Origin: a virus
Length of the DNA stretch: 47,326 bases
Reading direction: 5' to 3' (one strand)
Virus record (IMG/VR): IMGVR_UViG_3300030331_001567
Location: 1 to 47,326 of that record
Below are positions 96-47,326 of the stretch, piece by piece. A program made the translations under genes and the position numbers. A model generated the notes under the pieces. That model saw nothing but the letters and a program-made list of their open reading frames with translations. It searched no databases and was not told the origin of the DNA. Within the stretch, counting starts at the first letter, position 1. The number at the start of each line of letters is the position of its first letter.

Positions 96-542
96 ATGAA
101 CAAAATAATAATTACAATTTTACTATGCTTTAATTATGTTAGCGCACAAACCTTATGCGACTCTCTATCTTTTAGTGTAGAAACAAGTTCAGCACTAGCG
201 GTTGTAGGTGTAAACAGTTCTTCAGATAGTACTAATTTTATGTGGGGCGTTTGTGATAACAGCATGTGTTATTCAGCAAGTGGTGATACTGCATATTTCT
301 TTTTAGTTAACCCGTTAGACACTGTAAAAGTATGTTATGATATTTCACCTCAATGGTCATGTACTGAGTGTCACTACGTTATATTTAACGGTTTTACGTG
401 GCAATTACTTGATCTTACTACACATGTTAATGAAGTAAAACCTCAACTACATAATAATAAAATATACGACTTATTAGGAAGAGAATTAAAAAGTATACCT
501 AAAGGTAAGTTATATATTAAAAATGGTAGAATATATAAATAG
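96..542 (+). CDS. Exported Cys-rich protein with T9SS-like C-terminal sorting tail
   Basis: 148 residues. The N-terminus is a signal peptide (MNKIIITILLCFNYVSA, cleavage probably before Gln18). The body is Ser/Thr-rich with several Cys and short alternating hydrophobic stretches, suggesting a small beta-sandwich; a CHYVIFNGFTWQLLD segment resembles modules of secreted Bacteroidota proteins. The last ~35 residues (KIYDLLGRELKSIPKGKLYI, then KNGRIYK) have the layout of type A T9SS sorting domains: a DLLGR motif, a Gly/Pro turn and a basic end. In such hosts the tail directs cargo across the outer membrane, usually with tail removal and surface attachment. It is the first gene of the window and could be a surface-modifying or superinfection factor. 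The function of the body is unknown. Confidence 0.72.
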   Translation: MNKIIITILLCFNYVSAQTLCDSLSFSVETSSALAVVGVNSSSDSTNFMWGVCDNSMCYSASGDTAYFFLVNPLDTVKVCYDISPQWSCTECHYVIFNGFTWQLLDLTTHVNEVKPQLHNNKIYDLLGRELKSIPKGKLYIKNGRIYK

Positions 543-37971: not shown

Positions 37972-39069
37972 ATGGTGAAGAAATTTATAATATTATTAGC
38001 AACAATTTTAATAGCTTGCTCAGCTCCTAAAAAATGTTGTTCTCAAACGTTTAAAAAAGAAGACTTTGAAGATTTATTAAAGTTTTCTACGTTTTATGCC
38101 GCGGTTAATGGTGGTACATCATTGTCTGATGTTGACGTGTTTTCTGTAGATAATGGTTTATCTATACAAACTATTTCAACTCCTTATGATTACAACTTTA
38201 CCGTAGGTTTACGTAAGATAGGTAGGTTTGGATATGAGAACAAAGCAAATACTTTTTATGATGGAACGGAGTCTAATTACAGTGACGCGGCTACTGTAGG
38301 TAAAGTTAGAGGAGTTGAATATTTATTCGAAGTAGATTACAAAAGACAAGAAGGTGTAGATTATTTAGATCAACATCATTTTATTAGATTTAGTTCTGAT
38401 GACGGTTGTCCTGACGAGTTGTGTGTAAACTTTTTTGCTTTAAAGCTAGAATATCTTGAAGATGGTTTTGCAGATGTAAAATACTTTGAAGCATCAGAAC
38501 GTTATAGACATCGTAAAAATAGAAACTTATCATGGAATATAGGATTAACTCATAGACTTGCAGAGCCTTATGGTTACAACGCTTTAGACGAGTGGCTATT
38601 AAGTAATGGTAATATACATTATACGTATTTAGCGTTACAAGAAGGTTATACTGTAGATGTTTACAATAATCAGTATTATAATCCCGCGGGTGAGGTTGTA
38701 GCAACAAGTGCTGAAGTTTGGGAAGCTGTAGTTATACCACAAGTATTATCTGATTATACAGAAAAAAAAAGAAATGAGTTAAAGAAAACAATACAACACT
38801 CTTTAGTGTTAGGTTTTGATTACTATAAATATAATAAAAACACATGGTTACACGCTTGGGGAAGTTTAATGCCTTGGCATTATGATGATGGTGGTGAGTT
38901 TAGTTATCATAATTATGTTGATGGCCAGTGGTATGATTATTCAGGTGGTTTAATATATGGTATAAAAATAAATAAGCAGTTAGGTTATTTTGTTGAAGGT
39001 AAATATAACAAGTACTGGAACAGAGAGTGGTACGATTTTAAACTAGGAGTTAATTATATAATAAGATAA
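37972..39069 (+). CDS. Exported outer-membrane-like protein
   Basis: 365 residues. Hydrophobic N-terminus MVKKFIILLATILIACSAPK ends in a lipobox-like LIAC (Cys16) and a second possible signal-peptidase site before Gln25 (KKCCS/Q). The body alternates strands with aromatic residues (FTVGLRKIGRFGYENKANTF; HSLVLGFDYYKYNKNTWLHA) and ends with GVNYIIR, as outer-membrane beta-barrels often do. A helical section lies near residues 240-275. I have seen closely patterned proteins in other marine flavophages. Possible roles: receptor masking, superinfection exclusion or lysis support. It heads the envelope cluster and overlaps the next start by one base. Confidence 0.68.
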   Translation: MVKKFIILLATILIACSAPKKCCSQTFKKEDFEDLLKFSTFYAAVNGGTSLSDVDVFSVDNGLSIQTISTPYDYNFTVGLRKIGRFGYENKANTFYDGTESNYSDAATVGKVRGVEYLFEVDYKRQEGVDYLDQHHFIRFSSDDGCPDELCVNFFALKLEYLEDGFADVKYFEASERYRHRKNRNLSWNIGLTHRLAEPYGYNALDEWLLSNGNIHYTYLALQEGYTVDVYNNQYYNPAGEVVATSAEVWEAVVIPQVLSDYTEKKRNELKKTIQHSLVLGFDYYKYNKNTWLHAWGSLMPWHYDDGGEFSYHNYVDGQWYDYSGGLIYGIKINKQLGYFVEGKYNKYWNREWYDFKLGVNYIIR

Positions 39070-39380
39070 TGGCAAAAGAATTAAATGAAGATACAGCGTT
39101 TAAGTTAAGTATAAAAACTATAATAGGTGCTGGCTTTGCAATAGCAACTCTAGCCGGTATGTGGTTTACATTACAAGCAGATATAGCAGAAGCTAAAGAG
39201 TTACCTGCTAATGAATGGAATGAAGAGTGGATAGAAAAATTACCACCAGATGAAGTTACACGTATGGAGTTTCAAATGAAAGACGAAATGATACGTAATA
39301 CTATTATGTCTACACAAGAAGATGTTAAAGAAATAAAAGAAACATTAGAAAAAATAGAAGACAAGCTTTATGATAGATAA
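39069..39380 (+). CDS. Single-TM coiled-coil membrane protein (spanin/lysis candidate)
   Basis: 103 residues: a cytoplasmic N-terminus (MAKELNEDTAFKLSIKT), one membrane segment (IIGAGFAIATLAGMWFTLQA, ~19-38), and a long charged C-terminal coiled coil (TQEDVKEIKETLEKIEDKLY). This topology resembles inner-membrane spanin subunits (Rz-like), but could also be a membrane anchor of unknown role. A partner lipoprotein of Rz1 type is not evident, although the next gene overlaps by 11 bases and encodes an exported protein. The holin-like gene is far upstream. Confidence 0.55.
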   Translation: MAKELNEDTAFKLSIKTIIGAGFAIATLAGMWFTLQADIAEAKELPANEWNEEWIEKLPPDEVTRMEFQMKDEMIRNTIMSTQEDVKEIKETLEKIEDKLYDR

Positions 39381-39729
39381 TATTAACTGGCAAACAAGGG
39401 TTATGTACATGTTAATAATTATTATCATGTTATCTTGTAGTGTCTGTTTTAGTCAAATAAAAGTAATACAGTTTAATGCTAGTTGGAATAAAGTTAACGA
39501 TGTACCATGGGTTATGAGTTTAAAAGACTGTAAGACTATAAGTTACACAGATGTTGCTAGTGATAAAAAAGCACAAACAAAATACAAGATAGCATCTGTA
39601 CCTACGATAATAATATTTAAAGATGGTGAAGAAGTTGCTAGGTTTCAAGCTGATCTTAGCTTTACATTAGTAGCAACAAAAGAAGAAGTACAAGAAGAAA
39701 TAGATAACATAATAATGAGTGACTTTTAA
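39370..39729 (+). CDS. Exported thioredoxin-like protein lacking CXXC
   Basis: 119 residues from 39370; an internal ATG at 39406 would give MYMLIIIIMLSCSVCFSQ as N-terminus. Hydrophobic signal peptide with likely cleavage before Gln29 (CFS/Q). The mature part follows the thioredoxin fold: IKVIQFNASWNKVNDVPW, then YKIASVPTIIIFKDGEEVAR with the cis-proline loop (SVPT). The WCxxC active-site region reads ASWNKVND, so there is no redox Cys pair. It may act as a binding or structural module in the periplasm, or may be an inactive decoy. It overlaps the preceding coiled-coil gene by 11 bases. Confidence 0.72.
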   Translation: MIDNINWQTRVMYMLIIIIMLSCSVCFSQIKVIQFNASWNKVNDVPWVMSLKDCKTISYTDVASDKKAQTKYKIASVPTIIIFKDGEEVARFQADLSFTLVATKEEVQEEIDNIIMSDF

Positions 39730-42624: not shown

Positions 42625-44778
42625 ATGAAAAAAATACTACTATTATTATTATTACCAATATTTAGTTTTGCACAAAACTGTGCGCCAACACTAATAGCTA
42701 CTGATACATGTATGTATGGTTATGCTAGAACGTGGGTTGAGTGGCAACCATTAGATAGTGGTTGTGTTATAGCTAATGTTCACAGAGGTACACCGTATAA
42801 CACGTACTCTTGGAACTGGTATGATCAAAATGTTACTAATTATTCTTTTTATAATAATTATAGCCCCGGCGATCCTTTTGCTAGTTCAGAAGGTTTTTGG
42901 ATGGTTTTAGAAATGGCTGACGGTACTTTTACAGATACAATATATGCTAATGAATTTACATGTATTGAAGGTTGTATGGATGCGTCATATGATAATTACA
43001 ATCCATTAGCTAATATACCAGATGTTTGTTTAGCGATACCACCACCTCAAGATGATTGTGAAGATACTACAAAAACATCTATAACTATTGAGTTTGTGCC
43101 AGATACATACGCAGGTGAAACATCTATGCGTATATTAAATCAAGATGATAGTGTTTTATATAATATACCACAAGGATTTTTTGGTAGTGTAGGCACTGGT
43201 AATATGTATACCGAAACAATATGCGTACCAATAGGTGATACAATAGAGTTTATGATATATGACTCTTATGGTGATGGTATATGTGGTAGTTGCTTTGGTG
43301 GCGTTGATGGTTACGCTTTAATTACAGATGAGTGTGGTGATACTATATATAGCTTAACGCCAGGTGATAATTTAAACTTTGGTCATGGTGATACATCAGA
43401 TGTGTTTGTAATGAAAGACTGTAGCTGGATACCTGTTGTTGGTTGTCCAAACCCTGGTTACTTAGAGTTTAATCCTTCTGCTGATATAATGAATCCAGCT
43501 TTATGTATAACGCCTAGAGTTATAGGTTGTATGGATAGCACTATGTTTGATTTTAATGCTAGTGCTAATACACCACTAATGGAAGACACTTGTGGTTATG
43601 TGCTAGAACTTACTGATGGTGGTGGTGATGGTTGGTTAGGTGCTTACGTTGTGGTAAATCAATTAGGTAACTCATATGGACCTTATACTAACATAAGTTC
43701 TTTTGTTGAAACTATAAACTTAGAATTAAAATCAAACCACCCAGTTACAATTAGAGCTTACTCACAAACAAGCTCTGATGCTACTATAGATCAAATAGGT
43801 TTTAGATTAATAAATCCAGAAGGTGTTGTTATAGCTTCAGGTGGTACAAACCCTTGGAGTGACAGAATAATGTTGTTTCCAGATAAATATATAGCTTTGC
43901 CAAACTGTCCTACTATATGTACGCCTTATGTCTACGGTTGTATGGACGTTACAGCTTATAATTACGATAACACTGCAAATACTAGTGACGGTAGTTGTTA
44001 TTATACGCCTGGTTGTACAGATCCACAGTATTTAGAGTATTATACTCAAGGTTATGTAGCTGATTACAATAACGGTGATTGTAAAACAGAAGCTATATGG
44101 GGTTGTACTGACAGTACAGCATTTAACTATGATAGCTTAGCTAACTTAGATAATGGTGGTTGTACACCCGTAATATTAGGTTGTATGCAGCCTTTAGCGT
44201 TTAATTATGATGCAAATGCAAATACCGATGACGGTAGTTGTGTACCTTATATATATGGTTGTATTGATCCAACAATGTTTAACTACGACCCAACTTGTAA
44301 CACTGATGACGGAAGCTGTATACCTTATAGCTATGGTTGTATAGATTCAACTGCTTTTAATTATGATCCAAACGCTAATGCAGACAACGGATCTTGCATT
44401 GAAATAGTACATGGCTGTATGGATCCAAACGCGTATAACTATGATTTAACTGCTAACGTTAATGATACTCTTGCTTGTTTATATGATGCTGGTTGTATTA
44501 CTGGTGCAGGCTTTCCTTATTGGTTAAATGATGAGTGTTATGCCTGGGTAATTGAAGTAGATGAATATTGTTGTGAAAACGAGTGGGATACAATATGCCA
44601 AGCAACATATGATTATTGCGCAGGTACTTGGTCTGGTCCTGTACAAAGCAGATACGTACAAAAGAAACTAATAGCTGTCACTGATTTATTAGGTAGACCA
44701 ACTAAAATAACTAAAAATAAATTACTAATCTACATATATAGTGATGGTAGTGTAGAAAGAAAATTAATAAAAGAATAA
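42625..44778 (+). CDS. Exported repeat protein with T9SS-like sorting tail
   Basis: 717 residues from MKKILLLLLLPIFSFAQ, chosen because it gives a clean signal peptide; a longer reading (42460) adds 55 residues inside the upstream gene and is unlikely. Cleavage probably falls before Gln17 (SFA/Q). About ten copies of a ~20-residue Cys-paired repeat (GCMDPxAYNYDxxANxDDGSC type) alternate with two larger Gly/Asp-rich domains (DSYGDGICGSCFGG; DGGGDGWLGAYVVV). The C-terminus, KKLIAVTDLLGRPTKITKNK, then IYIYSDGSVERKL, matches T9SS sorting tails in Bacteroidota surface proteins. Likely displayed or released outside the host. The repeats also occur in host adhesin-like proteins, so the gene may be host-derived. 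The function is unknown; lying beside tail-fibre genes suggests receptor-related activity. Confidence 0.8.
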   Translation: MKKILLLLLLPIFSFAQNCAPTLIATDTCMYGYARTWVEWQPLDSGCVIANVHRGTPYNTYSWNWYDQNVTNYSFYNNYSPGDPFASSEGFWMVLEMADGTFTDTIYANEFTCIEGCMDASYDNYNPLANIPDVCLAIPPPQDDCEDTTKTSITIEFVPDTYAGETSMRILNQDDSVLYNIPQGFFGSVGTGNMYTETICVPIGDTIEFMIYDSYGDGICGSCFGGVDGYALITDECGDTIYSLTPGDNLNFGHGDTSDVFVMKDCSWIPVVGCPNPGYLEFNPSADIMNPALCITPRVIGCMDSTMFDFNASANTPLMEDTCGYVLELTDGGGDGWLGAYVVVNQLGNSYGPYTNISSFVETINLELKSNHPVTIRAYSQTSSDATIDQIGFRLINPEGVVIASGGTNPWSDRIMLFPDKYIALPNCPTICTPYVYGCMDVTAYNYDNTANTSDGSCYYTPGCTDPQYLEYYTQGYVADYNNGDCKTEAIWGCTDSTAFNYDSLANLDNGGCTPVILGCMQPLAFNYDANANTDDGSCVPYIYGCIDPTMFNYDPTCNTDDGSCIPYSYGCIDSTAFNYDPNANADNGSCIEIVHGCMDPNAYNYDLTANVNDTLACLYDAGCITGAGFPYWLNDECYAWVIEVDEYCCENEWDTICQATYDYCAGTWSGPVQSRYVQKKLIAVTDLLGRPTKITKNKLLIYIYSDGSVERKLIKE
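42970..44477 (+). repeat. Cys-paired GCMD...DDGSC repeat array (coding)
   Basis: About ten copies of a ~20-residue unit, each starting GC[MIT]D and ending in Cys, often DDGSC or DNGSC. Early copies are diverged and separated by two larger domains; the last six (from about 43935) are nearly contiguous, for example GCMQPLAFNYDANANTDDGS. Asn/Asp content suggests calcium binding. Copy number may vary between relatives. Confidence 0.85.
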
Positions 44779-46376: not shown

Positions 46377-47326
46377 ATGGGAAAGTGGATCGGGCAACAC
46401 ATATTTGATTTAGTAGCTAAGTTTCGTAGTGATGTATACTTAACTAATCAAAGCGCTTTGTATTCTGGAGAAGATGGATTAGGTGACTTAACCATAGTAG
46501 CTAGAGATGTTTTTATAAAAAATGATGAAGTAGATAGCTCTGGAGATACTACTTCTGGTGATCCAACTTTTCGTATAGGATCTAGTGACACTGAATGTTT
46601 ACAAATAGCTAGTAATTACCAAACTAGTACCAAAAGTATGCAGATTGCGCAATTTGCTACTAAAACTGAATCGTCAACTCCTAATGACGGAAGGTTTAGA
46701 TTTTTAGTGGATCAAGTCTCAATATTAGAAATTGATGATGGTGGAATAGATTTTTTCTCAGGATTTGCTGGTGGTATTTCTTTTAACGGAACAGATGTAC
46801 TAACAGATAATGGAAGTGGCAGAACAACTCTTGCTAATATAGATGCTTTAGATGCTACAACTATATCAACAATTAGTAGCGCTGTAAGTTCTGATATAAA
46901 TCACGATTCATTAGAAGGTTTTGTAACAGCAGAACACGTTGACTGGGCTAGTGCTAGCGCAGGTACAATACACTCTACCAATATACCTACATTAAATCAA
47001 AACACAACTGGACAGGCTGGCACTGTAGCTACAATAGCTGGACTAGCACCTAATACGGCTACTACCGCAGCCTCACAACCAAACATTACTTCACTAGGAA
47101 CTCTTACAGCTTTAACTGTTGGTGGTGATTTAACAGTAAATGGCGATACTATTACATTTGAGTCTACAGCTGCAAATGATCCTACAATAACTATACAAAA
47201 TACTACTGACGACACTAATTCACCAAGGCTTAGGTTTTTTAAACGAAGAGAAGATGGTGGTACGCTGCAAGCAGGTGAAGATGGAGACGGTGTCGGTGAA
47301 ATATTATTTAATAGTTTTGACGATAA
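46377..47326 (+). CDS. Tail fibre protein, partial (runs off the window)
   Basis: Open from ATG at 46377 to the end of the window: at least 316 codons, no stop. The N-terminus (MGKWIGQHIFDLVAKFRSDV) is a short helix that may attach the fibre to the tail. After that the sequence is low-charge, Ser/Thr/Gly-rich and beta-like: SLEGFVTAEHVDWASASAGT and SLGTLTALTVGGDLTVNGDT are typical of phage fibres that end in a self-cleaving (S74-type) chaperone or receptor domain, which would lie beyond the window. An acidic Gly stretch (QAGEDGDGVGEILFNSFDD) is at the cut edge. Presumed receptor-binding protein. Confidence 0.75.
   Translation, partial: MGKWIGQHIFDLVAKFRSDVYLTNQSALYSGEDGLGDLTIVARDVFIKNDEVDSSGDTTSGDPTFRIGSSDTECLQIASNYQTSTKSMQIAQFATKTESSTPNDGRFRFLVDQVSILEIDDGGIDFFSGFAGGISFNGTDVLTDNGSGRTTLANIDALDATTISTISSAVSSDINHDSLEGFVTAEHVDWASASAGTIHSTNIPTLNQNTTGQAGTVATIAGLAPNTATTAASQPNITSLGTLTALTVGGDLTVNGDTITFESTAANDPTITIQNTTDDTNSPRLRFFKRREDGGTLQAGEDGDGVGEILFNSFDD

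Follow-up and report, generated by a model that had tools for sequence, protein, structure and literature searches.

An open reading frame (ORF) at positions 96 to 542 of a viral genome raised the question of whether a phage can address a protein of its own to the type IX secretion system (T9SS) of its host. The window analysed was the whole 47,326-nt stretch of IMG/VR record IMGVR_UViG_3300030331_001567. The original prediction held that the encoded protein combines a signal peptide and a cysteine-rich, beta-like body with a T9SS sorting domain of type A, and that the phage uses the host system to place this protein outside the cell.

A conserved phage protein with a predicted signal peptide and Ig-like body

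The ORF starts MNKIIITILLCFNYVSAQTLCDSL and ends KIYDLLGRELKSIPKGKLYIKNGRIYK (Table 1). The expected signal peptide was recognizable as MNKIIITILLCFNYVSA followed by QT, a cut before Gln in the style of Bacteroidota; this assignment was made by eye and hydropathy, and is a heuristic rather than a SignalP result. Among homologues of the protein Gln18 was invariant, and an A-Q junction was present in nearly all. A lipoprotein reading of C11 was considered and dropped, because there is no lipobox and the cysteine is not kept in L012 or L013.

The cysteine-rich body was likewise borne out, and a beta-like fold is predicted for it. Its six cysteines are C21, C53, C58, C80, C89 and C92; across 17 phage and bacterial homologues, C21, C53, C58 and C89 were invariant and C80 and C92 nearly so. 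An AlphaFold2 model built from 10 sequences had a mean pLDDT of 75 and placed a confident beta sandwich at residues 20-105, with values of 80-92 per ten-residue block over residues 21-100. Foldseek matched the body to Fn3 domains with a probability of 1.00 but an E-value of 0.03, and VIA-align returned Z-scores of up to 8.4; the matches from these programs include a domain of a Bacteroides surface glycan-binding protein. As the Fn3-like fold is common, no function can be deduced from it.

Two relatives in IMG/VR were 84% identical to the protein, and dN/dS for the ORF was 0.09-0.13 (~0.1). Together with the score against a profile of bacterial tails (below), these values argue that the tail is more than chance. 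Within the family the body and the tail were conserved, and the linker between them was more variable. No family in Pfam, NCBIfam or PHROGs corresponded to the protein, and NCBIfam matches to ABC transporters were attributed to chance. A protein search of a phage collection with the full ORF gave only two matches, to Lak phages and at chance level; the tail alone and the long domain alone gave none.

Table 1. Positions of the predicted features in the window.
Feature	Position	Strand	Basis
Putative T9SS cargo protein, 148 aa (whole ORF)	96..542	+	homologues, dN/dS
Signal peptide, residues 1-17, predicted cut before Gln18	96..146	+	inspection and hydropathy, homologue conservation
Body, residues 19-105, six-cysteine, predicted Fn3/Ig-like beta sandwich	150..410	+	AlphaFold2, Foldseek, VIA-align
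Linker, residues 108-121, variable, low-confidence; possible sortase cut region T-x-V-N-E	417..458	+	
Putative class 1 short sorting tail, residues 122-148, KIYDLLGRELKSIPKGKLYIKNGRIYK; motif B-, D- and E-like	459..539	+	
Second putative T9SS cargo, 717 aa: signal peptide, GC[MT]D-x-x-A-x-NYD repeats, class 2 short tail	42625..44778	+	
Putative class 2 short sorting tail, about residues 680-717, LIAVTDLLGRPTKITKNKLLIYIYSDGSVERKLIKE	44662..44775	+	bacterial-tail model

A short tail in place of the canonical sorting domain

The DLLGR motif and basic last residue named in the original prediction were both found, within 27 residues at the extreme C-terminus of this putatively Sec-exported protein (the class 1 tail). 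Elements resembling motifs B, D and E follow one another in that order, closely spaced and behind a flexible linker; motif D is mostly GxxY, not GxY. The assignment to a type A sorting domain did not hold. The ORF had no match to PF18962 or TIGR04183 at E<=10, the two models found nothing on the virus record and two relatives, and against a model combining 40 long sorting domains of related bacteria the ORF scored 3.6-4.8 bits, within the range of shuffled sequences. Since neither PF18962 nor TIGR04183 matched, the tail fails the usual test for a type A sorting domain. In the AlphaFold2 model the tail has short strands. We conclude that the tail is short, unlike the domain of ~75 residues, and probably a sorting signal.

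Linker residues 108-119 were modelled as disordered (pLDDT <50). The linker of one relative, L017, contains TVGIEEL, which resembles the PT/GI site of Prevotella intermedia, and comparison with that site suggests a candidate cut position in the linker of ORF 96..542. The tail was present in every phage relative read to its end, and dN/dS for residues 122-148 was 0.06-0.15, a value drawn from few sites. Partial stretches of the GenBank relatives MW202828, NC_055853, PP540027 and KC821614 had no convincing tail.

The same tails on secreted bacterial proteins

A search with the tail alone recovered 16 viral loci, in one of which the body was unrelated (L019/L035), and one bacterial locus, L020. 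The phage protein at L035:3019-3591 has 191 aa, a cysteine-rich start, an acidic middle and the same class 1 tail, with no relationship to the body of ORF 96..542; its gene sits between homologues of the window genes 37972 and 39069. The L020 gene is chromosomal. Its product is homologous to the phage family in both body and tail, and the two neighbouring genes encode exported proteins with a second type of tail, KIRDILGRET...LLFYIYNDGTVEKKVVIE (class 2). The L020 sequence (CAMBDW010000009.1) belongs to a metagenome-assembled genome of ~1.5 Mb titled Chryseobacterium gleum, which clusters with other genomes of small size and is very likely mistitled.

In the family of this bacterium (G003, 52 genomes), the full model matched 27 genomes and the tail model matched 27. 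A phylum-wide search with the class 1 tail model gave strong matches in G003 only, and three further marginal ones. The class 1 tail is therefore lineage-restricted, which makes a wide test of co-occurrence with PorU uninformative. Among the same-tail, small-genome Bacteroidota, ten genomes were tested: PorU was over the cut-off in all ten, SprA was found in seven, and TIGR04183 had 41-87 matches per genome (E<=1).

In bacteria the class 1 tail forms the C-terminus of unrelated proteins of ~160 to 800 aa, and a signal peptide with an A/G/S-Q junction was present wherever the tail was confirmed and the N-terminus lay within the fetched locus. The bodies include M43 metalloproteases (PF05572, E ~1e-15) and a leucine-rich-repeat-like protein; the class 2 tail was found on a Porphyromonas-type peptidyl-arginine deiminase (PF04371, 1.7e-86). 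M43 proteases and Porphyromonas-type peptidyl-arginine deiminases are familiar types of T9SS cargo.

A profile built from eight bacterial tails with unrelated bodies scored ORF 96..542 at 29.1 bits (E=2.5e-9), and the next best of the 85 ORFs in the window at 3.2 bits; because it was resemblance to the phage tail that led to these eight tails, the score demonstrates sharing and not an independent discovery of the signal. These short tails went unrecognized by NCBIfam even in bacterial proteins. Judged by the shared tails, the small-genome lineage of G003 is a candidate host; phages related through their terminase infect Flavobacterium, Cellulophaga, Tenacibaculum and Maribacter.

A second putative cargo with exchangeable tails

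Scanning the ORFs of the window for signal peptides identified a second candidate, ORF 42625..44778, which ends in ...KLIAVTDLLGRPTKITKNKLLIYIYSDGSVERKLIKE, the second bacterial tail type. This tail scored 54.9 bits (E=2e-17) against a model made from bacterial tails only. Relatives of the protein were present in 79 fetched viral loci. A secretion tail was found in 75 of the 76 complete members (the window's own included), 43 short and 32 canonical long, with one member having neither; all were scored with models from bacterial sequences only. The proteins of L149, L152 and L160 are about 73-81% identical to that of the window and lie in the same gene neighbourhood, and their C-terminal domains exceed the PF18962 and TIGR04183 cut-offs.

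In a phylogeny built from the body alone, tail type changed at least six times on well supported branches and nine times by parsimony; this was a quick tree with some long branches, and the minimum counts starred branches only. Of all the evidence here, the exchange of short and canonical tails on one protein speaks best for a T9SS role of short tails: it is strong, though computational, and direct for class 2, whose tails swap in orthologues. For class 1, short and long tails on one cargo type were seen only among distant M43 proteases (24-31% identity).

Other ORFs lie in the same part of the window. A small thioredoxin-like protein at 39370-39729 (+) carries an export signal but no CxxC pair, and matched PF00085 at E=1.7e-4 (just under the cut-off); many related phages keep it close to the second cargo gene. 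The product of the gene at 37972-39069 (+) is exported, has 365 aa and may be a lipoprotein (LIAC-S start); it matched no family and is conserved in related phages. The ORF at 46377-47324 (+) continues to the window end.

Genomic context of the family

In several related viral contigs ORF 96..542 stands first in a rightward module, ahead of groEL and groES, and its place upstream of groEL is constant within its lineage. Structural genes also belong to this module. Full-length tailed homologues were found on bacterial chromosomes, and the family occurs in viral contigs with unrelated neighbours (L030-L034), indicating that the gene has moved between viruses and hosts. An inverted repeat, TGTGACA...TGTCACA (12-18 and 52-58), lies just upstream of the ORF; its halves are largely kept in four of the five relatives aligned, and it is a possible operator. 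In a sister phage group (L022-L025, L027, L028), the gene directly after the tailed homologue overlaps or adjoins it and encodes a 104-aa protein that begins MVRIIGLLLISISCNAQSLNVLSLHQDKQLHVGYTYI and bears an export signal.

Alternative explanations

Bacterial homologues of the family have the same tail, so the tail could be a nonworking scrap of a host cargo gene, with export ending in the periplasm and the body acting there, for example in lysis or on the entry of superinfecting DNA. Against this, the tail was kept in all phage relatives read to their ends, its low dN/dS indicates purifying selection, an identical type of tail sits on an unrelated body in another phage (L035), and the second phage protein retains a secretion tail in all but one of its complete members; we therefore regard a relic as unlikely. 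Still less probable is a virion component, such as a small Ig-like decoration protein whose tail serves assembly. Ig/Fn3-like domains are common on phage particles, and the gene lies in a structural-gene module before groEL, but the protein has a Sec signal peptide, normally absent from virion proteins assembled in the cytoplasm, and its tail is shared with secreted bacterial enzymes.

The failure of standard T9SS models to detect this tail class, even in bacteria, would also fit recognition by some other export or sorting route of the Bacteroidota outer membrane. We give this reading very little weight: the order and short spacing of the motifs fit the short T9SS signals of P. intermedia, one and the same protein can end in a class 2 tail or in a canonical T9SS domain, and the tested genomes with such tails possess the T9SS.

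A model for export and its possible benefit

We conclude that ORF 96..542 probably encodes a phage-borne T9SS cargo with a short signal, and put the probability of the four export steps that follow at about 0.8. The Sec pathway would export the protein, with removal of the signal peptide before Gln18, and in the periplasm the body would adopt its Fn3/Ig-like fold, linked by disulfides. Next, the short tail, which has motifs B, D and E but nothing else of the long domain, would be recognized by the T9SS translocon together with the PorV/PorU machinery. After passage across the outer membrane the tail would be cut in the linker at about residues 109-110, and the body either attached to surface polysaccharide or released. 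The proposal that the phage uses the host T9SS for its own protein is well supported by comparison, through tail reuse, the second cargo and tail swaps.

What the surface protein might do is a guess, and a doubtful one: it may alter the infected cell to the benefit of the phage, the likeliest means being to mask glycans or receptors on the surface or to compete there, with superinfection exclusion, or the avoidance of progeny loss to doomed cells, as the outcome. The hosts of this virus would be marine flavobacteria-like bacteria, and with at least two phage genes bearing putative T9SS address tags, live infected cells probably display or release viral proteins. A broader reading, tentative and less likely than not, is that this marine Bacteroidota phage lineage runs a small secretome of its own through the host T9SS: each genome would encode several disposable surface proteins, which freely recombine their short or long tails and recoat the living cell, for example excluding competing phages or altering cell-cell contact.

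Comparison with known systems

The locus offers a testable case of a phage exploiting a secretion machine found only in Bacteroidota. Natural swaps of short and canonical tails on one viral protein provide evidence beyond annotation, and short T9SS signals, known experimentally in P. intermedia, are extended to another bacterial lineage and to viruses. Because standard models miss short tails, counts of T9SS-secreted proteins in such bacteria and phages are probably too low.

In P. intermedia, 48 short T9SS signals of about 40-55 aa were predicted, and cleavage sites were found experimentally for five (PMC11969387). Motif B, motif D (GxY) and motif E make up these signals together with a cut region; a three-stranded sheet is predicted for them, and short and long signals alike support cleavage and glycosylation (PMC11969387). 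According to earlier results cited there, GFP could be secreted and attached only if the last 22 residues of Hbp35 were present, no other part being absolutely required, but changes in motif B blocked secretion of RgpB (PMC11969387). The phage tail is likewise C-terminal on exported proteins, with closely spaced motifs B, D and E and few beta strands. Counted from the cut site, it would measure about 39 residues if cut at T109/H110, against ~40-55 in P. intermedia. It differs in being phage-borne rather than bacterial, in having mostly G-x-x-Y rather than G-x-Y at motif D, and in that its cleavage is a prediction from comparison. With the type A domain (PF18962/TIGR04183) the phage tail shares its place, its presumed role, motif B (xxDxxGR), a G..Y motif and the basic end, and class 2 short tails alternate with that domain in phage orthologues; ORF 96..542 nevertheless lacks both a profile match and the YPNP-containing first half.

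The original prediction also took no phage system of this kind to be known; two precede it. Cryophage encodes T9SS-tagged cargo proposed to use the host system (PMC7468147), so phage-encoded T9SS cargo as such is not new. Phages with crAss-BACON ORFs carry proteins with T9SS sorting domains upstream of head genes, on annotation only (PMC6949934); they are Bacteroidota phages, as here, but from the gut, and the accessible part of that report describes no short tails. The Cryophage cargo consists of endoglucanase, glycoside hydrolase and PA14 proteins with type A domains, and is highly variable among cryoconite phage variants (PMC7468147). Here, in contrast, the putative cargoes are a small Ig-like protein and a repeat protein, both with short tails, and the first occupies a fixed place before groEL. 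As far as our literature search reached, the new elements are short signals in a phage, two cargoes per genome and natural tail swaps.
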